The notes under the pieces: model-generated
Seen by the model: the letters and a program-made list of their open reading frames with translations, nothing else
What the model was told of the DNA's origin: nothing
The model's database searches: none
Part shown: positions 44,583-64,000 of the stretch, one piece after another
Numbering within the stretch: position 1 is the first letter of the stretch
How the letters are laid out: each line of letters opens with the position of its first letter
Assembly (NCBI RefSeq): GCF_003443615.1
Contig: NZ_CP031967.1
Location: 1,426,001-1,490,000, forward strand
From: Alteromonas sp. BL110
Lineage (GTDB): Bacteria; Pseudomonadota; Gammaproteobacteria; Enterobacterales; Alteromonadaceae
Length of the DNA stretch: 64,000 nucleotides
Direction of reading: 5' to 3'
Made by a program: the position numbers and the translations under genes

Positions 44583-44636
44583 TGTAATTACATTGTCATT
44601 TTGTGCTAGTATTGGATCTAAGGTAAACGTTTCACC
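44583..44636 (+). promoter_or_regulatory. Candidate promoter and GalR-like operator for the TonB receptor operon
   Basis: A possible sigma-70 promoter has TTGTAA (44583-44588) and TAGTAT (44607-44612) 18 bases apart. The operator-like AGGTAAACGTTTCACC spans 44621-44636, just downstream, where a repressor would block early transcription. The site resembles the E. coli GalR consensus and three other sites in this window. The rest of the 304-base gap up to 44807 is AT-rich and otherwise empty. Confidence 0.6.
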
Positions 44637-44807: not shown

Positions 44808-47630
44808 GTGACACATAAAATTAACACATCACAGTTAGGCCCAATTGCGAAACGCTCACTTTTAGGTGTTGCTATCGCCTCTGCCCTACACGCACCGGTA
44901 GCATTTTCTCAAGATGCTGACACTCAAAGTGTAAACGATGCACCTGTTGAAGTTATTGAAGTTCGCGGCATTGTAAGCAGCTTGAAAAGAGCAATGTCTG
45001 ATAAGAAAGAAAACCTCGCTGTTTCAGACGGTATCGCAGCGGAAGATTTAGGTAAATTCCCAGATCTAAACGTTGCTGAATCACTTCAGCGTATTACTGG
45101 TGTTTCTATTGACCGTAACGGTGGTGAAGGCCAAAAAGTTACGGTACGTGGTTTCGGCCCACAGTTTAACACTGTACTTGTAAACGGTCGCCAACTAGCT
45201 ACCGACGATGCTGGCCGTGCGTTTAACTTCGACGTACTCGCTGCCGACCAAATTACTGGCGCTAGTATTTACAAAAGTGGCGTTGCCAACCTTCAATCCG
45301 GTGGCATCGGCTCAACCATCAATGTATCTACTGCTCGCCCATTTGACTATGACGGTTTCCAAGCGGTAGGTAGCGTGAAGGGTGTTTATGAAACCCTTTC
45401 TGAAGAAACGTCTCCACAAGCCTCTTTCTTGGTAAGTAATACATTTGCCGACGATAAGTTTGGTTTACTTCTAGCGGTATCGCATCAAGAGCGTCAAGTT
45501 CAAATTAACCGTATTCAAACGGCAGGCTGGCGTCCAGGTCTAACACTTTCTAACCGTGGCGATGGCGAAACGGCTGAGATTATTGCTACTGACGTTTATT
45601 TGCCACGTAACTGGGACCAAGTTGTTGATCAACAAGACAGAACTCGTACTAACGCATCACTTGTTGCACAGTTCGCGCCATCTGATGATGTAACCATCAC
45701 GTTAGACGGTTTTATTTCAAAGTTTGAGGTTGATTCTCAAGTTACTGACCTTGCATCATGGTTTGAACCAGATCGTGTTGGTTCTGCAACTATTTCTGAG
45801 TTTGGTACGGCTTTACAATTTACACAAGAAATTGACTTACACCAAGGTAGCGGTAACCCTGCATCTGACTTCGTATCATCAACTCGTGGTGTACGTGATG
45901 TAACTAACAAAGGCTTTGGTTTAAATGTTGATTGGCAAGTGACTGACGCGTTATCTGCAACGTTTGATGTTTCAACTTCTGAAGCTGAAAATGATGTAGC
46001 TGGCGAAGGTCGCTTTAATGTTGTTGGTATCATCAACAACTACGAGTTCGATAGCACAGGCGGCACACCTACTGTAATTCACGATGGTTTCGCCGATGGG
46101 CAATTGCCTGATATCTCACTAAACCGCCTTCACTATAACGACTTAGGTAACGTTGTTGCCTCAGAAGATGAAGTAACAGAATACAAAGCTGACTTCACTT
46201 ATTTAGCCGATTCTGACGTTTTTCGTAAGGTAGATTTCGGTATCTTACGTTCAGAGCGTGAAAAATTTGTTTACCAAGAGTTTGCGTCACAATGTGCATT
46301 CTGTGGTTATGGCACAGAGGCTCCAATCGATGAACTGAACATTCGTCCGTTTACTGCAAACAACTTCTTCAGCGGTCTGATTGACACTTGGTATACTTAC
46401 GATGGCGATGCATACCTAGACTACCTTGCATCACAAGGTGCGCCAGTAGTACCTACGCTTCAGCCGAACTATTACAACATTGAAGAAGACGTAACGGCGC
46501 TTTACGCTAACTTCGAATTTGGTTATGACATTGGTGACATGCCGTTAACCATGAACTTCGGTGCCCGTTACGAAGAAACCAGTGTTTCAGTTTCTGCAGT
46601 ACAAGCGCTTATCGCCGACGTTGTTCCTACTACTGACTTAACCTTGTTCTCAAATGTCTTCGCTCCATCAGAAAACATTACAGGTTCATCTTCATATGCC
46701 AACCTTCTACCTAGCCTGAACGTTAAGTTAGAAGTACAAGAAGATATGATTGTGCGTTTCTCTCGCTACGACTCTTTGACACGCCCTACTATGTCTCAGA
46801 TGTCTCCAGCGACCACTTTCAACGAGCCTCGTCGTCAAAACCTACAGGCAAGCGGCGGTAACCCAGATCTTAAGCCATTTAGCGCTGAAAACTGGGATTT
46901 ATCATTTGAGTGGTATTACAGCGATGATTCTGTGTTCTCGTTTGCAGTATTTAGCAAAGAAGTAGAAGACTTCATTGTCACGCTTTCTGGCGATGAAACT
47001 TATACCATGACGAACCGTCTTCCAAATGACTATCGCTGTGCGGCGGAAGATTGTGCGGTGGGCGTATCGCTTGACCCACAAGACCCTGATCGCGACGTAG
47101 TGGCTGACACAGAAGAGCTTAATGGCGCAAGCGAAGTTTATACTGTTACACGGCCTCAAAACGGCGAAACGGCAACGGTTAATGGTTACGAAGTAGCGAT
47201 TACCCACGTTTGGGATAACGGCTTTGGTGTAACCGCTAACGCTACTGTAGTTAACAGTGATGCGGAAGTATCTGGCGATACAACACAGACGTTTGCGCTA
47301 GCAGGTCTTGGTGATTCACAAAACCTTATCGTGTTCTACGAGCGCGATGCGTTCCAGGCTCGTGTAGCGTTTAATAACCGAGAGTCGTTCCTATTTGCAC
47401 TAGATAATACTGAAGTTGGCGGCGCGACAGGCGAGCCAATTACGACTGAAACCTACGGTCAGTGGGATGTAAGTGCAAGTTACGACATCAACGAACATCT
47501 TACGGTATTTGTTGAAGGTATTAACGTAACGGAAGAAGAGCTTTCGCAGATAGGCCGCTTCCCAGACCAAATATACTCAATTGAAGACAATGGTGCTCGC
47601 TACTCTGTAGGTATCCGAGGCTCATTCTAA
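44808..47630 (+). CDS. TonB-dependent outer-membrane receptor, probable galactoside importer
   Basis: 940 residues. Signal peptide about 1-34 (LLGVAIASALHAPVAFSQ), a TonB-box-like VEVIEVRG near 49, plug domain about 60-175 (LGKFPDLNVAESLQRITGVSIDRNGGEGQKVTVRGFGPQFNTVLVNGR), then a 22-strand-type barrel ending in a C-terminal aromatic (YSVGIRGSF). It belongs to the TonB-receptor branch common in Alteromonadales, Caulobacter and Xanthomonas carbohydrate loci. The substrate is inferred from the neighbours (alpha-galactosidase, symporter, GalR-like site) as an alpha- or beta-galactoside, not from the sequence itself. GTG start with GGAG upstream. Confidence 0.9.
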   Translation: MTHKINTSQLGPIAKRSLLGVAIASALHAPVAFSQDADTQSVNDAPVEVIEVRGIVSSLKRAMSDKKENLAVSDGIAAEDLGKFPDLNVAESLQRITGVSIDRNGGEGQKVTVRGFGPQFNTVLVNGRQLATDDAGRAFNFDVLAADQITGASIYKSGVANLQSGGIGSTINVSTARPFDYDGFQAVGSVKGVYETLSEETSPQASFLVSNTFADDKFGLLLAVSHQERQVQINRIQTAGWRPGLTLSNRGDGETAEIIATDVYLPRNWDQVVDQQDRTRTNASLVAQFAPSDDVTITLDGFISKFEVDSQVTDLASWFEPDRVGSATISEFGTALQFTQEIDLHQGSGNPASDFVSSTRGVRDVTNKGFGLNVDWQVTDALSATFDVSTSEAENDVAGEGRFNVVGIINNYEFDSTGGTPTVIHDGFADGQLPDISLNRLHYNDLGNVVASEDEVTEYKADFTYLADSDVFRKVDFGILRSEREKFVYQEFASQCAFCGYGTEAPIDELNIRPFTANNFFSGLIDTWYTYDGDAYLDYLASQGAPVVPTLQPNYYNIEEDVTALYANFEFGYDIGDMPLTMNFGARYEETSVSVSAVQALIADVVPTTDLTLFSNVFAPSENITGSSSYANLLPSLNVKLEVQEDMIVRFSRYDSLTRPTMSQMSPATTFNEPRRQNLQASGGNPDLKPFSAENWDLSFEWYYSDDSVFSFAVFSKEVEDFIVTLSGDETYTMTNRLPNDYRCAAEDCAVGVSLDPQDPDRDVVADTEELNGASEVYTVTRPQNGETATVNGYEVAITHVWDNGFGVTANATVVNSDAEVSGDTTQTFALAGLGDSQNLIVFYERDAFQARVAFNNRESFLFALDNTEVGGATGEPITTETYGQWDVSASYDINEHLTVFVEGINVTEEELSQIGRFPDQIYSIEDNGARYSVGIRGSF

Positions 47631-47647
47631 GATTTGTGTGTGTGTTT

Positions 47648-47714
47648 TGGCAGGGGTAAAACCCTGCCATTTATCCATAAGCCTATTGGCAAAACGAGTA
47701 CGTTTATGGATAAA
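47648..47714 (+). other. Nested inverted repeats between receptor and halogenase-like gene
   Basis: First a hairpin TGGCAGGG (47648-47655) with CCCTGCCA (47662-47669), then an 11-base perfect inverted repeat TTTATCCATAA (47670-47680) with TTATGGATAAA (47704-47714). The first is only weakly terminator-like because no long T run follows. It may stop or stabilise the receptor mRNA so that downstream genes are made at a lower level. Confidence 0.55.
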
Positions 47715-47755
47715 TGTAGAAAACAGTCATAATTCCATTTAAGCAGTGTTGTTTC

Positions 47756-49288
47756 ATGAACCATTCATCTTATAGATCTCAAAAACAGCGTCTTGTCATC
47801 GTAGGTGGCGGCACCGCTGGCTGGCTTACTGCCGCCATAGTCGCAGCTAAACACAAGGTAGCAATGGGTGAATGTGGCTTAGACATTACTCTGGTCGAAT
47901 CTAGTGACATTCCTACTGTAGGCGTAGGTGAAGGTACGTGGCCAACGATGCGTAACACGCTTAAAGATATTGGCCTATCTGAAAAAGAAGTATTTAGACG
48001 CTGTAGCGCTGCTTTTAAGCAGGGCGGTAAGTTTGTTAACTGGGTAAATGGCGATGGCGATTTTTACTATCACCCGTTTACCGTACCGCTAGGTTATGGC
48101 CGCGTTGAGATGGCTCCCTACGTAGGCGACATTGCAAATTTTGCCAATGCCACTAACTTTCAGCAGCACGTGTGTGAACGCAATATGGCGCCTCGTACGC
48201 TAAGCGAACAAGAATACAGCAGCGCACAGTCGAACTATGCGTATCATTTAGATGCTGGTGCATTTGCTGACATGTTGCGAGACTTCAGCAAAACGGAGCT
48301 AGGCGTAAAACACATTGTCGCCACTGTAGAAAGCGTAGCCGCAACCTCAAACGAACATATCGAAAGCGTTACGCTTAACAACGGCATGGTTTTACATGCC
48401 GATTTATTTGTCGACTGTTCTGGTTTTCGCTCACTATTACTTGGCGAAACCCTCGGTGAAAGCGTTGTTTCTACAGACGATGTGTTATTTAATAACTCTG
48501 CCCTTGCCCTTCATGTACCCCACGAAGAAGACTTTGAAATTAAGCCCTATACCCAAGCAACAGCTCAAGAAGCAGGCTGGATTTGGGATATTGGTTTGTC
48601 TTCTCGAAGAGGTGTAGGCCATGTTTACTCGACCGATTTTACTACCGACGAACGGGCGGAAGAAGTATTGCGTCAATACGTAGGTGACGAGCAGGGTGAC
48701 TTGAAAGCGCGCACAATTCGCTTTAACTCTGGTTACAAGAAGCGTATTTGGAAAGGCAACTGCATTGGCGTGGGCCTTTCCGCAGGGTTTGTAGAGCCAT
48801 TAGAAGCAACCGCCCTTATGCTTATTGAGATTTCAGCACGTTATATTGCAGAGCAAATGCCGTTGCCCGCCACAGCTATGCCTATAGTCAGCCAGCGCTT
48901 TAACAAGCAAATGAACTATCGTTGGCAACGCATTATCGACTTCTTGAAACTTCATTATATTTTTAATCAACGCAGTGAACCTTACTGGGTTGCCAATCGC
49001 GATGCGTCTTCTATCCCCGACTCTTTAAAAGAAGATTTGGAAATTTGGAAGTATCGCGGACCACAAATTGCTGATTTTTCAGCGGCAATAGAGCTATTCC
49101 CTGCCGCCAGCTATCAGTATGTGTTATACGGAATGGGATTTTCTCCAGACTTTTCTTTGCAATCTCATTTCTACAACGAACGTGACCTAGCAGATAAAGT
49201 AATTCAACAAAATCAGCTAATCACGCAGCAAAAACTAAGCAGCTTACCTAATCACCGCGACTACATTGAGCAGTGGTTGGCAAGCTAA
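47756..49288 (+). CDS. Flavin-dependent tryptophan-halogenase family protein in a sugar operon
   Basis: 510 residues of the PF04820-type flavoprotein family. FAD motif VIVGGGTAGW (Gly17, Gly19, Gly22), GVGEGTWPTM, and AFKQGGKFVNW with Lys88 at the place I align to the catalytic lysine of PrnA/RebH. The WxWxIP signature is changed to W275-I-W277-D-I279-G, and the EPLES block reads EPLEAT (347-352). Members of this family often accompany TonB receptors and SapC in carbohydrate loci, where no halogenation has been shown to my knowledge. It precedes sapC by 13 bases. No clear ribosome binding site is seen before the ATG. I would not name a substrate. Confidence 0.85.
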   Translation: MNHSSYRSQKQRLVIVGGGTAGWLTAAIVAAKHKVAMGECGLDITLVESSDIPTVGVGEGTWPTMRNTLKDIGLSEKEVFRRCSAAFKQGGKFVNWVNGDGDFYYHPFTVPLGYGRVEMAPYVGDIANFANATNFQQHVCERNMAPRTLSEQEYSSAQSNYAYHLDAGAFADMLRDFSKTELGVKHIVATVESVAATSNEHIESVTLNNGMVLHADLFVDCSGFRSLLLGETLGESVVSTDDVLFNNSALALHVPHEEDFEIKPYTQATAQEAGWIWDIGLSSRRGVGHVYSTDFTTDERAEEVLRQYVGDEQGDLKARTIRFNSGYKKRIWKGNCIGVGLSAGFVEPLEATALMLIEISARYIAEQMPLPATAMPIVSQRFNKQMNYRWQRIIDFLKLHYIFNQRSEPYWVANRDASSIPDSLKEDLEIWKYRGPQIADFSAAIELFPAASYQYVLYGMGFSPDFSLQSHFYNERDLADKVIQQNQLITQQKLSSLPNHRDYIEQWLAS

Positions 49289-49301
49289 CGAGAATTATAA
49301 T

Positions 49302-50051
49302 ATGCCAACATTTGAAACCTTATCGGCTGATACCCACAGTGCTCTTACTATTGACGAGAGCAAGCTTGCTAGTACTTATTCGAAATTTCATCTTCTCAAC
49401 ATTGAGATAAAGGAAGCCGTTCAAGCATCTAGCGACTTCCCTTTGTTTTTCAGTAAACCTACTGAAGCGCAGTATTGGACAATTTCGGCCCTGTGCGGCC
49501 TAGCTCCCCAAGAAAACGTGTTTGAAACGCAAGGTACATGGCTTGGTCACTATGCACCGCTTAGTCTTCGCACCTTACCTTTTATCGTGCGATTGGGAAA
49601 TGATGCTGAGCAGCAAGAAGTTTTAGTTGATGTCGACTCGCCAGCCGTTTCTTCTCAAAACGGTGAAGCGCTCTTTTTGCCTTCAAAGCGCCCTACTGCG
49701 TACTTAGATAACAAAAAGAAATTGCTAGATGAGCGCGTTACCGCCATGCAGCAAACCGCTGTAATGATGAATCAAATTAGCGAGATGGGGCTCATTCATA
49801 CTGTTGACTTGATCATAGAGTACAAGGACAACACCAATCAACGCGTGGGCGGATTAGCTACGGTGAATGAACAGCGCTTGCAAAGCCTTACAGGTGAAGA
49901 ACTAGCTAATTTGAATCAAAAGGGCCTGCTAAACGTGCTTTTTAATATTCTTGGCTCTATTTTGCAGGTGAACCGCGTTATCCGTCTTCATAACACTAAA
50001 TTCCCTGATCGCGCTGTTAACAACATTAAGTTCGAAACCAGCAAGTCATAA
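49302..50051 (+). CDS. SapC family protein
   Basis: 249 residues resembling the SapC family (PF07277), first named from a Campylobacter S-layer locus but of unknown biochemical role here. Visible blocks: FPLFFSKPTEAQYWTISALCGLAPQENVF, GHYAPLSLRTLPFIVRLG, and a C-terminal helical segment GEELANLNQKGLLNVLFNILGSILQVNRVIRLHN. No signal peptide. ATG at 49302 chosen because a weak GAGAA site precedes it and the longer frame would start inside the halogenase gene. It lies between the halogenase-like gene and the symporter in one transcription unit. Confidence 0.82.
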   Translation: MPTFETLSADTHSALTIDESKLASTYSKFHLLNIEIKEAVQASSDFPLFFSKPTEAQYWTISALCGLAPQENVFETQGTWLGHYAPLSLRTLPFIVRLGNDAEQQEVLVDVDSPAVSSQNGEALFLPSKRPTAYLDNKKKLLDERVTAMQQTAVMMNQISEMGLIHTVDLIIEYKDNTNQRVGGLATVNEQRLQSLTGEELANLNQKGLLNVLFNILGSILQVNRVIRLHNTKFPDRAVNNIKFETSKS

Positions 50052-50071
50052 CTGCCCTCTAGGAGTAAAAC

Positions 50072-51529
50072 ATGTTTTCCAGCACTATTCAGGTGTCTGT
50101 TTTTGTCTTTGTGACTGCTTTAATTGGTTTTCTAACCTATTTAAGTTGCCGCGGACAAAATAGAAATGCCCAAAACCAAAACCGCGAATACTTTCTTGCA
50201 GGCGGAGGTCTAGCTTGGTATTTCGTTGCAGGTAGTATCACGCTCACCAACCTAAGTACCGACCAGCTAGTAGGTATGAACGGTAACCAAATGGCCTTGT
50301 TAGCCCTATGGGAACTAGCAGCCGTTGTAGGCCTTTTCGTACTGGCAAAAGTATTTCTGCCTGTGTATTACAAATTCAAGTGTACAACCACAACAGAACT
50401 TCTAGAGCAGCGCTATCACGACAAGCATATACGCGCAGTTATTAGTGCGCTCTTCTTCGCAGGCAGTGCTTTAATATTTTGCCCGGCTGTAATCTATTCT
50501 GGCTCTTTGTTCATGCAGTCTATGTTTAACGTTGAACTGCCGCTTATGTACATTGCAGTTATATTCGTTATCGTTGGTGCCCTATATGCTATCTTCGGCG
50601 GTCTTCGTGCGGTAGCCGTGTCTGATACCTACTCAGGCGTGCTTCTATTAACCATGGCCGTATTGGTGGTTATTTTAGCGCTTCAAGCCATCGACTATAA
50701 CTTTGATGGAATTCCGCAAGAGCGACTTACGCTAATTGGCGATGATGAGTCTCCGATCCCTTGGCACACTCTACTTACCGGTATGATCTTTATCCAAATG
50801 TTTTATTGGGGTACTAACCAAGTAATTACTCAGCGCGCAATGGCAGCACCCTCTTTGAAAGAAGCGCAAAAAGGCGTATTCGCTGCGGCCGGCATTCGCT
50901 TGCTGATTGTACCTGCCATTATTGTTATTCCAGGTATCGTTTCATACAAACTATTTGGTGATATTGGTGATAGTGCTTACGGAAAAATTGTTGCAACGGT
51001 ATTGCCTGATTGGCTTTCTGGCGTATTCGCAGCGGCCATGGCAGCTGCGGTGTTAACCACGTTTAACAGTAACCTGAACTCTGCTACTGCACTTTACGTT
51101 TGCGACATTCACGAAAGCTATATCAACAAAACACCTAACGTACCTAAGCTAAGCGGCTACGTTACGGTTTTATTGTGCCTAGTATCGCTTGCGCTAATCC
51201 CAGTATACCAACAAGCTGATAGTATTATTAACTTGGTTCAAAAGCTTTATGGCCTATTAAGTATGCCTATTCTTTCGGTATTCATTGTTGGCTTACTGTT
51301 TAGAAATGTGCATGCATTCGCAGCCATTGGGGCAGTGTTGTTCGGTGTTTCAATTTACGCGTTAATGAGCTTTGAAGCTTCACCTCTGTATGCACCGTTT
51401 GGACTTCATTACATACACCTAATGTTCGCAACCCTCATTGGCTGTGTCGCCTTTGCTCTTATTGTGAACCGTGTGGTGTTTAACCAGAAGGCAGAGTTTT
51501 CGTTAGAGCTTTATAAAAAAGAAGCCTAA
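50072..51529 (+). CDS. Sodium/sugar symporter, SSS family
   Basis: 485-residue inner-membrane transporter of the sodium:solute symporter family with about 13-14 helices. SSS motifs: EYFLAGGGLAWYFVAGSITLTNLSTDQLVGM, GGLRAVAVSDTYSGVLLL, and FYWGTNQVITQRAMAAPSLKEAQKGVFAAAGIRLLIVPAIIVIPGI. The glutamine in STDQLVGM corresponds to the sugar-contacting Gln of vSGLT. It differs clearly from the second symporter at 57858-59420 and probably takes a different sugar, perhaps the intact galactoside. AGGAG precedes the ATG, and a terminator follows. Confidence 0.9.
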   Translation: MFSSTIQVSVFVFVTALIGFLTYLSCRGQNRNAQNQNREYFLAGGGLAWYFVAGSITLTNLSTDQLVGMNGNQMALLALWELAAVVGLFVLAKVFLPVYYKFKCTTTTELLEQRYHDKHIRAVISALFFAGSALIFCPAVIYSGSLFMQSMFNVELPLMYIAVIFVIVGALYAIFGGLRAVAVSDTYSGVLLLTMAVLVVILALQAIDYNFDGIPQERLTLIGDDESPIPWHTLLTGMIFIQMFYWGTNQVITQRAMAAPSLKEAQKGVFAAAGIRLLIVPAIIVIPGIVSYKLFGDIGDSAYGKIVATVLPDWLSGVFAAAMAAAVLTTFNSNLNSATALYVCDIHESYINKTPNVPKLSGYVTVLLCLVSLALIPVYQQADSIINLVQKLYGLLSMPILSVFIVGLLFRNVHAFAAIGAVLFGVSIYALMSFEASPLYAPFGLHYIHLMFATLIGCVAFALIVNRVVFNQKAEFSLELYKKEA

Positions 51530-51656: not shown

Positions 51657-51672
51657 AGTAAAACGTTTACCC
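51657..51672 (+). promoter_or_regulatory. GalR-like operator before alpha-galactosidase
   Basis: AGTAAAACGTTTACCC, identical at 14 of 16 positions to the site before galT. A possible promoter uses TTTACC inside the site as -35 and TATAGT 18 bases later as -10, so a repressor here would overlap RNA polymerase. Confidence 0.65.
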
Positions 51673-51799
51673 TAAAATTGTAGAATAGGTATAGTGAACG
51701 TGATTTAATATGCGAAATTATGGCGTAAGAAGACACTACTTACGTTGTAAAAAAGTTGTATCACCACCTAATTTACGTTTTATTAACGCTGAGGTTTTT

Positions 51800-53929
51800 A
51801 TGTCGTCACTTTCTCAATTCGTACGCCTGTCGAACGAAAAAGTCACCTTAATATTCGACTGTCAGGGTCGTATGCCAAAAGTCATTTACTATGGTGCGCC
51901 ATTAAGTGACAGCACAACGCCTGAAATGCTTAGCGTTTTAAACACACGCCAAGAAGCTAAGTGTGCGCCAGTAATAGAGCCACCCATTACTTTAGTGCCA
52001 ACCCATGGTGAAGGTTGGACAGGACAGCCAGGCCTTGAAGTTTCCGGTGATGCGGACCAGTGGTCAGCAGGCTTTAATTTAGTAGAAATAGATCAAGACG
52101 CTCAATCGGTTGCCTTCATTGCTGAAGATGCACATCGCGGTATGCGCCTTATCACAAGTGTAGAGCTTGATACTGCGACCAGCGTTGTAAAATATGTTTC
52201 TCGTGTAGAAAACACCGGCAGCAGTGCGCTGAACCTCAATTACCTAAATGCTGCTAGCCTTCCACTTCCTACAACGGTTAGTAAAATCAAAACATTCGAA
52301 GGTCGTTGGTCTGCTGAATTCCAAACCAAAGATCACGACCTATTCTTTGGCAGCTATGTACGTGAAAACCGCCGTGGCAAAACCTCTCACGACACCTTCC
52401 CTGGCCTTATTGCATTCCCTCAAGGTACGGGTGAACTTAACGGTGAGTGCTATGGTTATCACCTGGGCGCTTCTGCAAATCACAAGCTTCGCGCCGAGCT
52501 AATGGCTGATGGTAGAAGCTACGTACAGTTTGGTGAGTTATTATTTCCAGGTGAAGTAGTACTTAACGCTGGGGACAGCTATACATCACCAGTTCTTTAC
52601 ACAGGCTATGGCTGTGAAGGTTTTTCATCCCTGTCGCAACAGTTCCACAATTTTATACGTAGCAATGTGCTAAACCATAGCGCTGAGTCTAAGCCTCGCC
52701 CAGTTCACTACAACACCTGGGAAGGGATTTATTTCGATCATAACGAAGACGAACTTAAAGCCTTGGCTGACAAGGTAGCGCCGCTAGGTATTGAACGCTT
52801 CGTTTTAGACGATGGATGGTTCAAAGGCCGCAGAAACGACAAAGCTGGGCTTGGTGACTGGTTTGTAGATGAAGCCATCTACCCTGAAGGACTAGACGGG
52901 TTAATTGACCATGTTACTGGTCTTGGCATGGAATTCGGCATTTGGTTTGAGCCAGAAATGGTTAACCCAGATAGCGACTTATATCGCGCGCATCCTGAAT
53001 GGGCACTTCAAACTGAAAACAACCCTCATGTGCCATTTAGAAACCAATACGTTCTAGATTTAACCAATCCAGAAGTGGTTGAGTACCTTTATAAAGTTAT
53101 TACTGATGTACTTAAAGCCTATCCCAAAATAAGCTACATCAAATGGGACATGAACCGCGACGTAAACCATCCGGGCAACCTGCAAGGCAAACCGGCAATG
53201 CACGGCCAAATGGCAGCGCTTTACGGCTTGATTGACCGCGTAAAAGCAGCTAAGCCAGGCATTGAAATAGAAAGCTGCTGTTCAGGTGGCGGACGAGTAG
53301 ATTTAGGCATATTGCCACACACGGATCGCTTCTGGACGTCAGACTCTAACGATGCACTAGACCGTTTATATATTCAGCGCGGCTGCTCTTACTTCTTCCC
53401 ATCTGAAGTAATGGGCGCGCACGTAGGTCCGCGTGACTGCCATATTACAGGTCGTAACCTACCTATTGAGATTCGTTCAGCAGTAGCCTTGTTTGGTCAT
53501 ATGGGCATAGAAATGGACCCACGTGAACTGACAGACCACGAGCAAAGCGTGCTAACAGACGCTATTTCGCTTTATAAGAAATATCGCCATATTACCCACG
53601 GCGGCGATTTATTCCGCATGGATGATGACAGCATGAATGTGAAATTTGGTTATGTGTCGAAAGACAAGCAGGAGGGTATTTTTGCATATAACAGTGTTAC
53701 AGAAACCGTACGTACTACGCCTAACCGTTTCTACTTCGCAGGGCTTGACGCTAACAAGCAATACACCATTGAGCGTGTGTGGCCTGAAAAGCTGAAAGAA
53801 TACACTCCTTCAATTTTACAGCAAACTGAAGGACAAGTGTTCTCTGGCGAAGTCTTGATGAAATACGGTATGCAACTGCCGGTACTCTTCCCACAAACAG
53901 CGCTGATTTATACTGTTAAAGCCCTGTAG
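51800..53929 (+). CDS. Alpha-galactosidase, GH36 family
   Basis: 709 residues; cleaves terminal alpha-1,6-galactose from melibiose, raffinose-family sugars or galactomannan fragments. N-terminal beta-supersandwich (about 1-320), then the TIM barrel with YNTWEGIYFDHNE and FVLDDGWFKGRRND. The nucleophile is Asp450 in IKWDMNRD and the acid/base is Asp515 in FWTSDSNDALDR, with the conserved CCSGGGRVD between them. No signal peptide, so it acts in the cytoplasm on imported sugar. ATG at 51800 is preceded by GAGG; a longer frame begins upstream of that site. It has its own GalR-like operator and supplies galactose to the Leloir genes further on. Confidence 0.95.
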   Translation: MSSLSQFVRLSNEKVTLIFDCQGRMPKVIYYGAPLSDSTTPEMLSVLNTRQEAKCAPVIEPPITLVPTHGEGWTGQPGLEVSGDADQWSAGFNLVEIDQDAQSVAFIAEDAHRGMRLITSVELDTATSVVKYVSRVENTGSSALNLNYLNAASLPLPTTVSKIKTFEGRWSAEFQTKDHDLFFGSYVRENRRGKTSHDTFPGLIAFPQGTGELNGECYGYHLGASANHKLRAELMADGRSYVQFGELLFPGEVVLNAGDSYTSPVLYTGYGCEGFSSLSQQFHNFIRSNVLNHSAESKPRPVHYNTWEGIYFDHNEDELKALADKVAPLGIERFVLDDGWFKGRRNDKAGLGDWFVDEAIYPEGLDGLIDHVTGLGMEFGIWFEPEMVNPDSDLYRAHPEWALQTENNPHVPFRNQYVLDLTNPEVVEYLYKVITDVLKAYPKISYIKWDMNRDVNHPGNLQGKPAMHGQMAALYGLIDRVKAAKPGIEIESCCSGGGRVDLGILPHTDRFWTSDSNDALDRLYIQRGCSYFFPSEVMGAHVGPRDCHITGRNLPIEIRSAVALFGHMGIEMDPRELTDHEQSVLTDAISLYKKYRHITHGGDLFRMDDDSMNVKFGYVSKDKQEGIFAYNSVTETVRTTPNRFYFAGLDANKQYTIERVWPEKLKEYTPSILQQTEGQVFSGEVLMKYGMQLPVLFPQTALIYTVKAL

Positions 53930-59780: not shown

Positions 59781-60920
59781 TTAGGCAAATGCGCCTTGTG
59801 TTGCAGTGCACACGTAGATGTCTGCATGGTAGCCAGTTTCGTCAAAGTATTTGTCTGCGACTACTTGCTTCACAGCATCGACTTTGTCTGTAGGGACAAG
59901 CGCTACAACGCAGCCGCCAAAACCTCCGCCCGTCATGCGGACACCTCCAGATTTACCAAGTACTTCACCAATAATCTCAACCAAGTAATCAATTGGGCGT
60001 ACGGTAATTTCGAAATCGTCACGCATAGAAACGTGAGACTGCGCCATAGCGTCACTTACCGTTTCAATATCACCAGACTTTAACGCCTGACTTGCTGCTA
60101 ACGTACGCGCGTTTTCAGTAATGATATGCTTCGCACGGCGATAAACCACCTCAGGCATGTGTGCTTTGGCTTCTTCTAGCATCTCCATGGTTGCTTCGCG
60201 CAACGATGAAACTCCCAGTAGCGATGCACCTTGCTCGCACTGCTGGCGACGCAAATTATACTCGCTGTCTACCAAACCACGTTTTACATTCGAGTTAATG
60301 ATTACGATTTGATGCGAATCTGGCAGCGGTGAATGCTCGATGGCTAATGACTGGCAATCAAGCAGCATTGCCATACCTTCGTTGCCCATGGCAGAAATTA
60401 ACTGATCCATGATTCCGCACGAACAGCCTACGAAAGTGTTTTCTGCTTTTTGACCTAATAGCGCGGCTTGTACACCGTCGAGTGGTAGCTCGTAAAGCGC
60501 GCTAAGCGCTTTTAAAATAGCCACTTCAAAAGACGCTGAAGAGCTTAGACCGGCGCCTTGTGGCACGTTACCTGTAACCAACAAGTTTGCCCCGCCAAAA
60601 TCTGGCAAAGCCTCTTTTAGTACTTTCACTACGCCGCGAACATAGTTTGCCCAACCCTGTTCCTCGTCGTAGTTAATGTCTGATAAGGAGAACTGATTCT
60701 GCTGATTTTCGTAGTCCATAGCAGTAACTAGAATCTCATTATCGTCGCGCTTAGTTGCCGCAACCCAAGTACCAAAGTTGATAGCAGCCGGAAAGACGAA
60801 CCCTTCGTTATAATCGGTGTGCTCACCTATGATGTTCACGCGACCAGGGGCGTGTGCGATTAGCGTTGGCTCGTTGCCGTAATGCGCTTCAAATGTAGAA
60901 GAAAGTACTTGGTTATCCAT
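59781..60920 (-). CDS. galK: Galactokinase
   Basis: Phosphorylates galactose to galactose-1-phosphate. 379 residues (E. coli 382), GHMP kinase family. Galactokinase signature [19 protein letters not shown] near residue 28, GHMP ATP motif [18 protein letters not shown] near 115, catalytic Asp in CGIMDQLIS, and the C-terminal motif [18 protein letters not shown] at 60920 overlaps the galT stop by eight bases; a longer form from 60932 is less like the family. Confidence 0.96.
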
Positions 60921-61968
60921 TAGTATTCTCACGTTGCTTGTAGTGCACCGTAGGCAGTGCTTTTAATCTGTCTGCCGCCTGTTCAGGGGTCAAATCTCGT
61001 TGTGCTTCGGCCATCATTTCGTATCCAACCATAAACTTGCGAACACTTGCTGAGCGCAATAGCGGCGGGAAGAAATGAGCATGGAGCGTCCACTCAGGGT
61101 GGTCTTCATTATCAAATGGCGCACTATGCCAACCCATTGAATATGGGAAAGACGTTTCAAATAAATTGTCGTATTTCGCCGTTATTTCACCAATAATTTT
61201 GGCAAGTGAAAACGATTGCGAGTCAGATAGCTTATGCAAAGATTGAACATCAAAACGGGGCAGTAATAGCGTTTCAAATGGCCATGCAGCCCAATATGGA
61301 ACCACAACCACCCAATCATCGTTTTGGCATACTACGCGCTCTTGCTTAATAACTTCTTGCTCAGCGTAGTCCAACAACATAGGGGCGTTGTTTTCACCAA
61401 AGTACTGTTTCAGCTGTACTAGTTTTTTTGCTGGATCTGTAGGGATGTGCTGCTGCGCCCATACCTGACCATGCGGGTGAGGGTTTGAACACCCCATCAT
61501 TGAGCCTTTGTTTTCAAAAACCTGTACCCAACGATAGCTTTCACCTAGTTCAGCGGTTTGTTCTTTCCACGTATTAACTACATCTACTCGTTCTTCGTCA
61601 GTAAGCTCTGGAAGTGTTTTGCTGTGATCAGGTGAAAAGCATATAACGCGACTACAGCCTTGCTCTGTTTCAAATTGGAACAGGCCTTTTTTCTCGCTGG
61701 CCTGCTCAGTGTCTTGCTTCAGCGCAGCAAAATCGTTTTGAAAAACGAACGTTCCTTTATAATCCGGGTTTACCTCACCATTCACCCGAGTGTTAGTTGG
61801 GCAAAGGTAACAGGTAGGGTCGTAAGACGGCTTTTGTTCGTTATTCGGCTCTTCAGAAGCACCCTGCCAAGGACGCTTAGCACGATGTGGCGATACTAGC
61901 ACCCACTCGCCCAACAATGGGTTATAACGGCGATGCGGATCATTGGTTGGGTCGAAAGGGGTTCCCAT
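60913..61968 (-). CDS. galT: Galactose-1-phosphate uridylyltransferase
   Basis: Exchanges UDP-glucose and galactose-1-phosphate in the Leloir pathway. 351 residues (E. coli 348). The nucleophile is His166 in NPHPHGQVW, the same number as in E. coli; zinc ligands CYLC near residue 55 and His164 are present. N-terminal [24 protein letters not shown] is diagnostic. ATG at 61968 follows GAGAG. galT and galK form one operon under a GalR-like operator; galE, the third Leloir gene, is not in this window. Confidence 0.97.
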
Positions 61969-62042: not shown

Positions 62043-62092
62043 GGTTAAACGTTTACCCTAGCAATAATATAGCAAGCTATGCTGTTTATCAA
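62043..62092 (-). promoter_or_regulatory. galTK promoter with GalR-like operator at the start site
   Basis: On the minus strand TTGATA (62092-62087) and TATTAT (62069-62064) are 17 bases apart, a good sigma-70 match. The operator GGTTAAACGTTTACCC spans 62043-62058, directly over the expected transcription start near 62057. TAAACGTTTA at its centre is a perfect palindrome. Confidence 0.72.
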
Positions 62093-63492: not shown

Positions 63493-64000
63493 ATGGCAAC
63501 AATAAAAGATATAGCCCAAGCCGCTGGCGTTTCGTTAGCCACAGTATCCAGGGTTATCAATAACGGCCCAAAAGTAGGCAACGATACTCGACAACGCGTT
63601 AAAAAAATCATGGAAGAAATGGGCTACCGTCCCAACGCAAATGCGCGGGCTCTTGTAACTAAACGCAGTGCCTCATTGGGTGTGGTTATTGCTGAACTCC
63701 ACGATCCATTTTTCGCAATGTTAGCCCATGGCGTTGAATCCATAACACGCAAAAATAACGTTCAAATACTGTTAAGTGCTGGGTCAATTGAAAAAGAAAC
63801 AGAGCTGCGGGCTATTGAAACTCTGCTAGAACACCGCGTTGAAGCCATGGTAGTGCACAGCAAAGCCCTTGATGATAAGACGTTGATTGGCTTTGCTAGT
63901 CAAGTACCAGGCTTTGTTCTAATTAACCGATACATCCCAGAAATAGCGAACCGCTGTGTATGGCTTGATAACGTGACCGGTGGTCGGCTAATGGCAGAAT
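63493..64000 (+). CDS. galR: LacI-family repressor, GalR-like, 3'-truncated by window edge
   Basis: The visible 169 codons begin MATIKDIAQAAGVSLATVSRVINNGPKVG, a LacI-type helix-turn-helix and hinge (YRPNANARALVTKRS), followed by the start of the periplasmic-binding-like sensor (SLGVVIAELHDPFFAMLAHGVE; AMVVHSKALDDKTLIGFASQVPGFVLINRYIPEIANRCVWLDN). The match to E. coli GalR/GalS is continuous, including NANARAL and VLINR. Together with galM, galTK and the shared operators it is the likely galactose-responsive repressor of the whole region. The reading frame is open to base 64000. Confidence 0.9.
   Translation, partial: MATIKDIAQAAGVSLATVSRVINNGPKVGNDTRQRVKKIMEEMGYRPNANARALVTKRSASLGVVIAELHDPFFAMLAHGVESITRKNNVQILLSAGSIEKETELRAIETLLEHRVEAMVVHSKALDDKTLIGFASQVPGFVLINRYIPEIANRCVWLDNVTGGRLMAE

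Follow-up and report, generated by a model that had tools for sequence, protein, structure and literature searches.

The 64,000-nucleotide stretch of DNA analyzed here, which we refer to as the window, corresponds to positions 1426001-1490000 of the 4.46 Mb single-contig genome of Alteromonas sp. BL110. It contains a unit in which the gene for a TonB-dependent receptor is followed by those for a halogenase-like flavoprotein, a SapC protein and a symporter. HALB, the label used for flavoproteins of the window type, and HALA, used for a second type, were coined in this analysis. The unit, the structured gap behind the receptor gene and the alpha-galactosidase gene that comes next are as follows (window coordinates; bit scores are given against the cut-off where one is stated).

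44808..47630, plus strand: TonB-dependent receptor of the TIGR01782 subfamily, 940 aa (615 bits against 310)
47649..47715 (ends approximate), plus strand: two adjoining stem-loops, from a fold of the 125-nt gap that separates the receptor gene from the flavoprotein gene
47756..49288, plus strand: PF04820 halogenase-like flavoprotein (HALB), 510 aa (411 bits against 21)
49302..50051, plus strand: SapC, PF07277, 249 aa from the likely start (165 bits against a gathering cut-off of 28.9)
50072..51529, plus strand: sodium/solute symporter (SSS; PF00474, 131 bits)
51710..53929, plus strand: GH36 alpha-galactosidase with its own operator (PF02065, 412 bits)

An earlier, sequence-only reading had placed the receptor, flavoprotein, SapC and symporter genes in one unit behind a GalR-like site. 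This arrangement holds, but the reading had passed over the GH36 gene with its operator and the structured gap. The likely start of SapC is the ATG at 49302 (MPTFETLS), where close relatives begin in the alignment, and not the TTG at 49266.

The association between receptor, flavoprotein and SapC is real, ordered and wide. Of the 118 genomes examined from the order, 30 gave a total of 60 SapC matches, one of which was partial, lay on a contig edge and was left out. Within three genes of SapC the remaining 59 loci contained a TonB receptor in 37 cases, HALB in 36 and any PF04820 gene in 38, with HALB directly adjoining SapC in 33. A second set came from a scan of species genomes with a SapC alignment taken from full cassettes, a query that biases toward such cassettes; the best 80 of 200 loci were kept. 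The 71 SapC genes called in them in this analysis were accompanied by a receptor (66), HALB (59), HALA (68), Cupin_8 (69) and DUF6445 (48). The usual order outside the window is receptor-HALB-SapC-Cupin_8-HALA-DUF6445, the later families being assigned by Pfam from one representative each. Thus, the pair of SapC and flavoprotein that had been proposed as a device does recur, with Cupin_8, HALA and DUF6445 as further members elsewhere. The source genome contains neither a Cupin_8 match nor DUF6445, which is present in 9 of the 118 genomes, and the window therefore holds a reduced form of the cassette.

The HALB-SapC order is kept amid differing sugar genes in gamma- and alphaproteobacteria, and the cassette enzymes are found beside alpha-galactoside, beta-glucan, chitin, agar and xylan genes, the receptor being the constant companion. 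It could be argued that these genes and the receptors are merely co-regulated, being useful under the same conditions without any direct partnership, an explanation helped by the facts that genome-level co-occurrence is confounded by ancestry and that the locus can be plasmid-borne. However, the constancy of the order among such different sugar genes makes this, in our view, quite improbable. The same observation bears on the idea that the cassette oxidizes the oligosaccharide being taken up, or one of its groups; the sequence-only reading had also considered a sugar as substrate. The cassette does lie within sugar loci, beside their hydrolases and transporters; nevertheless, a sugar substrate is not favored because the same clades accompany genes for chemically different glycans, and the PF04820 enzymes known to us act on aromatic rings, so that we regard sugar oxidation as very improbable.

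The link to the receptor is also seen when SapC is left aside. In the source genome, each of the five PF04820 genes belongs to a run that starts with a TonB receptor, and one of these receptors (in locus L010) scores under the TIGR01782 cut-off. When the best PF04820 locus of each of 30 genomes was taken, chosen independently of SapC, 15 had a TonB receptor no more than 1.5 kb upstream on their own strand, while nine more sat in a SapC/Cupin_8 module; in one of the other six (L095), a TIGR01782 receptor lies just outside the fetched stretch. TIGR01782, full-length PF04820 and SapC co-occur across the 118 genomes of the order, an association that is inflated by shared ancestry: 28 genomes contain both a receptor over the cut-off and a full-length PF04820 gene, three the receptor only, two the PF04820 gene only, and 85 neither. 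Loci L117 and L120 (genomes G086 and G051) contain PF04820 genes that have no receptor closer than 1.5 kb; both genomes are without TIGR01782 over the cut-off, and each also has two receptor-less PF04820 genes side by side. One TIGR01782 receptor of the source genome is read in two frames (G000:C1:2662804-2665609, minus strand). In L010, the GH32 gene beside the receptor-HALA pair likewise consists of two overlapping frames, corresponding to N- and C-terminal parts (L010:9153-10575, minus strand), which may reflect a frameshift, a pseudogene or a sequencing error.

The window flavoprotein, which is 97% identical to one from Alteromonas sp. ALT199, combines the PF04820 match with a GxGxxG motif (GGGTAGW) and has AFK with K88, W275-I-W277-D-I-G280 and E347-P-L-E350-A351-T352; the FAD motif, Lys88, WIWDIG and EPLEAT are thus exactly as the earlier description had them. 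In an alignment of 103 HALB rows (102 sequences, that of the window being entered twice; 2 of 104 labelled genes were dropped as short and near-copies were kept), the catalytic K88 and E350 are invariant. The WxWxIP motif is absent: its last residue is G in 92 rows, A in nine, D in one and S in one, and never P. The Ser of EPLES is replaced as well, EPLE being followed by A in 102 of the 103 rows. Likewise, the motif worded Fx.Px.Sx.G in PMC7336383 is not found, since Ala takes the place of its Ser in 102 of 103 rows and position 353 is A in 91, S in seven and G in five. The HALA alignment (93 rows for 92 sequences, one of them present in two rows; 6 of 98 were removed as too short), on the other hand, has K88 and E346-S347-T348 in every row, and each letter of WxWxIP lies above the 93% listing threshold. 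A quick tree of 64 HALB and 40 HALA representatives, which contained these two clades and no outside halogenases, was parted by one branch with a support of 100. The motif departures are therefore a fixed clade signature and not decay: the earlier observation of them was correct, and the alignment of 102 HALB sequences shows that they are no odd degeneracy.

The solved chains closest to the window protein are 2pyx, presumably from Shewanella, and 9ltb (445 and 444 bits), which read WxWDIG and WxWDIA in the alignments; both are labelled "tryptophan halogenases", and we found no function for them. In PMC7336383, 2pyx is called unnamed and unpublished. The introduction of PMC5945002 states that WxWxIP has been suggested to block monooxygenase activity; on this suggestion, HALB may act as an oxygenase or, through a different site, as a halogenase, and its sequence is compatible with both.

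Several known systems resemble parts of this arrangement. The group-C halogenases BrvH (6frl) and Xcc1333/4156/4345 have PF04820, the FAD fold and the catalytic Lys and Glu in common with the window protein. BrvH keeps WxWxIP, unlike the window protein with its WxWDIG and EPLEA, and therefore resembles HALA; its natural substrate is unknown, and a second halogenase gene adjoins its own (PMC5945002). The Xcc enzymes and BrvH are reported to halogenate indoles in vitro, chiefly with bromide. It is conceivable, then, that the flavoprotein acts on a small molecule, such as indole, tryptophan or an aromatic compound imported with the sugar, by halogenation or hydroxylation, and that SapC is unrelated to the chemistry. 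The in vitro activities and the retention of Lys and Glu in HALB are what this explanation has in its favor, but HALB is without the Pro of WxWxIP and the Ser of EPLES, it adjoins SapC in 33 of the 59 loci of the order, and the constant presence of a receptor would be left unexplained; hence, we consider it rather unlikely.

There are precedents for action on a protein. QhpG and LodB/GoxB are flavoproteins that help to oxidize a Trp of a partner protein, and qhpG and qhpC are encoded together. Specifically, QhpG, which is similar to FAD-dependent halogenases, carries out the dihydroxylation of a peptidyl Trp (PMC7876137), and LodB, encoded in the LodA operon, takes part in the Trp modification of LodA (PMC4699246). 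Their clients are quinoproteins, and the passages on them report no SapC. The similarity of the window protein to the QhpG profile NF049967 is weak and far under the cut-off (32 against 240 bits), and the LodB/GoxB profiles NF038171 and NF038174 are not among the matches listed for it. A HALA protein also shows weak QhpG similarity and scores 24 and 22 against 400 bits with the LodB/GoxB profiles. Among the papers listed by our literature search, which left most subscription journals outside, none joins halogenase, SapC and TonB receptor; one of them, PMC11337851, contains both "tryptophan halogenase" and "TonB-dependent receptor", and the literature consulted also includes PMC8269204 and PMC6864650. 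New here are the fixed HALB signature, a partner of 2-oxoglutarate (2OG) type, DUF6445, and the position of SapC near giant exported proteins.

In the case of DUF6445, a structural model (pLDDT 94.1) has eight PDB matches at E <= 0.001, the best being OGFOD1 (E 8.8e-5, TM 0.46), and we take all eight to be 2OG-Fe(II) oxygenases. The HxD...H motif plus Arg is present as H132, D134, H224 and R242, invariant in 44 sequences. The modelled structure thus places DUF6445 in the 2OG-Fe(II) oxygenase fold class.

We know of no function for SapC. Its AlphaFold2 model (71 sequences; pLDDT 92.6, pTM 0.87) had no Foldseek match in the PDB at E <= 0.001 and, with a second aligner, one weak local match; H12, E38, N72 and W80 hardly vary, each being conserved in at least 90% of 70 sequences, orphans included. 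Some indication of what SapC serves comes from plasmids, of which we viewed 22 SapC contexts from 40 plasmid records. Nine contain a TonB receptor and a PF04820 or cupin-like gene, the receptor being on the opposite strand in three. In eight others, where SapC is without a halogenase, a gene of at least 10 kb lies within three genes; the products are LEPR-XLL, haemagglutinin-like, autotransporter-like and adhesin-like proteins, and one 21-kb gene is unnamed. As a control, none of 127 annotated genes reaches 10 kb in three 50-kb stretches of three such plasmids, whose gene tables are incomplete. One further plasmid SapC comes after a 3-kb DUF4214 gene, another has a weak link through an ABC transporter and an M10-type peptidase nearby, and 2 of the 22 contexts are without a receptor, giant or secretion-type neighbor. 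Outside plasmids, the orphan SapC of L042 (gammaproteobacterial genome G075, in which no TIGR01782 match exceeds the cut-off) is transcribed divergently from a long open frame that has LEPRILL close to its beginning; alongside most of the remaining orphan SapC genes that we inspected in the order, no exported giant is obvious. This pattern can be read as SapC serving exported proteins in general. Thus, the expected link to TonB receptors was found, but SapC is not restricted to them.

SapC might then assist the receptor as a chaperone or in its export, with the flavoprotein serving independently as a redox or oxygen sensor, or as a scaffold, and having no fixed product. The contexts in which SapC accompanies giant exported proteins and no halogenase is annotated would fit such a division of labor; the invariant catalytic Lys and Glu, and the linkage to Cupin_8 and DUF6445 as further oxygenase-type proteins, would not, and we judge it unlikely.

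Other SapC contexts deserve mention. In L052, L071 and L089, two SapC genes flank one or two HALB genes, and in the first two of these loci the two copies are not closest relatives. The orphan SapC at L041:6607-7878 (plus strand) lies opposite two frames that are ExbD- and TonB-like by eye. A second SapC of the source genome (L011:7146-7904, plus strand), 25% identical to that of the window and with no cassette gene near, lies between a divergent M19 dipeptidase gene and a 274-aa frame, whose sub-threshold beta-barrel similarity makes it a possible outer-membrane barrel; downstream are an mraZ-like gene and then cell-wall genes (named by eye, except for M19). The dipeptidase-SapC-mraZ arrangement recurs in related genomes. 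The name SapC presumably derives from Campylobacter S-layer loci, and the function of SapC there is, to our knowledge, undescribed. In one of the 22 plasmid contexts, from Campylobacter, a SapC-like frame immediately precedes the gene for a type I secretion permease; unlike the window, this plasmid has no flavoprotein or receptor there.

The recurrence beside outer-membrane sugar receptors in many bacteria suggests the receptor, and not the sugar, as what the pair prepares or chemically modifies. Our tentative view, plausible but somewhat short of an even chance, is that flavoprotein and SapC constitute a receptor-maturation pair. SapC, which going by its neighbors would be a partner of exported beta-rich proteins, would bind the newly made receptor chain before export; a cytoplasmic location would agree with the fact that no signal peptide was seen by eye, no prediction tool having been run. 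A general reductase would supply reduced FAD to HALB, which would oxidize or halogenate a residue that is exposed and probably aromatic, within the receptor's barrel part, before export, as its conserved Lys and Glu and the precedent of QhpG and LodB suggest. In other loci, Cupin_8, the canonical WxWxIP halogenase and the DUF6445 oxygenase would add steps. This gives a more definite form to the receptor-linked device of the sequence-only reading, which we retain as the best, albeit unproved, reading: its link to the receptor is borne out by the five source-genome PF04820 genes and the 118-genome co-occurrence, modification of the receptor is what we infer, and the search for a residue that tracks the cassette was negative.

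Several observations weigh against receptor maturation. The activity of HALB, whether oxidation or halogenation, is a prediction from the conserved Lys and Glu, and the related BrvH brominates free indole in vitro (PMC5945002). Among the 59 SapC loci of the order, 19 are without a receptor, PF04820 or Cupin_8, and 5 of the 30 best PF04820 loci have no visible receptor. Conversely, many receptors of the subfamily occur without the cassette, as borne out by 40 stretches fetched for receptors located away from PF04820 and SapC, although the cassette enzymes might act in trans. Furthermore, no column of the receptor alignment separates cassette-linked from other receptors, and W314 is Phe in three cassette-linked receptors. 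Finally, protein distances compared over 35 operons (of 60 complete ones, after 25 near-copies were dropped) give an ambiguous picture. The distances of all five cassette proteins are correlated (0.55 to 0.84). Partial correlations are 0.43 for SapC-receptor (bootstrap 0.29 to 0.54), 0.47 for SapC-HALB (0.27 to 0.58) and -0.38 for receptor-HALB (-0.51 to -0.15), a pattern that would fit SapC as an adaptor; those of HALA-receptor (0.46) and Cupin_8-HALB (0.43) are about as high, so SapC is not unique. Similarly, SapC tracks the barrel part of the receptor (0.82) better than the plug (0.46), and so does HALA (0.84 versus 0.49). Because shared ancestry is still contained in them, these correlations are only a hint.

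A broader version is that SapC is a client adaptor for beta-rich surface proteins in general, with flavin- and 2OG-dependent enzymes hydroxylating or halogenating receptor residues before export. We hold such a tailoring system to be possible, though on the doubtful side, and slightly lowered its probability because SapC is not singled out by the distance correlations. If it exists, the group-C halogenases would have their missing native substrate, and SapC would gain an initial function. No natural substrate is known for "tryptophan halogenases" such as BrvH, and the cassette points to the receptor encoded first in the unit as the client; if this is true, enzymatic oxidation or halogenation would join the known modifications of outer-membrane proteins, and caution would be due in reading such genes as natural-product enzymes.

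With regard to the galactoside setting of the unit, the following features surround it.

44622..44636, no strand: GalR-type operator GGTAAACGTTTCACC upstream of the receptor gene, an exact match to the pattern
51657..51672, no strand: second GalR-type operator, 5' of the GH36 gene (two mismatches on the minus strand, three on the plus strand)
59781..60932, minus strand: galactokinase gene galK (PF10509, PF00288, PF08544)
62043..62058, no strand: GalR-type operator of the gal genes, the other exact match
63493..63999, plus strand: 5' part of a gene for a GalR/GalS-like LacI-family regulator (NCBIfam), which runs beyond the window

The genes galK, galT, galM and that of the regulator thus lie 8 to 12 kb downstream of the unit (the names rest on Pfam for galK, on NCBIfam for the regulator and on inspection by eye for galT and galM). 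The top NCBIfam matches of the regulator are GalS and GalR over residues 1-166, under the cut-off because the reading frame is cut by the window end. A scan with the pattern GGTAAACGTTTMACC, allowing at most three mismatches and scoring palindromic sites on both strands, gave 13 matches in the window against 3.6 expected, a number reached in 0 of 100 shuffles; among them, the second exact match covers 62043-62057 and the two-mismatch match ahead of the GH36 gene covers 51657-51671. The operator of the receptor gene is identical in L091 and has one change in L093. GalR would therefore be expected to place the unit under galactose control, the sites and the regulator gene being present.

Stem-loops are common at gene ends. 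The fold of the receptor-flavoprotein gap (47640-47760), at -38.9 kcal/mol (z -4.80), is matched in stability by 0 of 200 shuffles, and of 78 non-redundant gaps after a receptor gene (post-receptor gaps only, 40 shuffles each, the window gap being represented by its near-copy in L091), 64 have z < -2 and 44 z < -3. Median gaps, which rest on gene starts called in this analysis, are 201 nt for receptor-HALB (n=81), 53 for HALB-SapC (n=85) and 10 for SapC-Cupin_8 (n=82); the cassette layout keeps the receptor gene at a distance from those of the enzymes. A structured gap at this point would suit a plentiful receptor and a scarce enzyme, common as such structures are anyway. The galactoside unit is also found on a 74-kb Pseudoalteromonas plasmid, in the order TonB receptor-halogenase-SapC-SLC5-alpha-galactosidase (L286, NZ_CP011038.1:29117-39800), and may therefore move between species.

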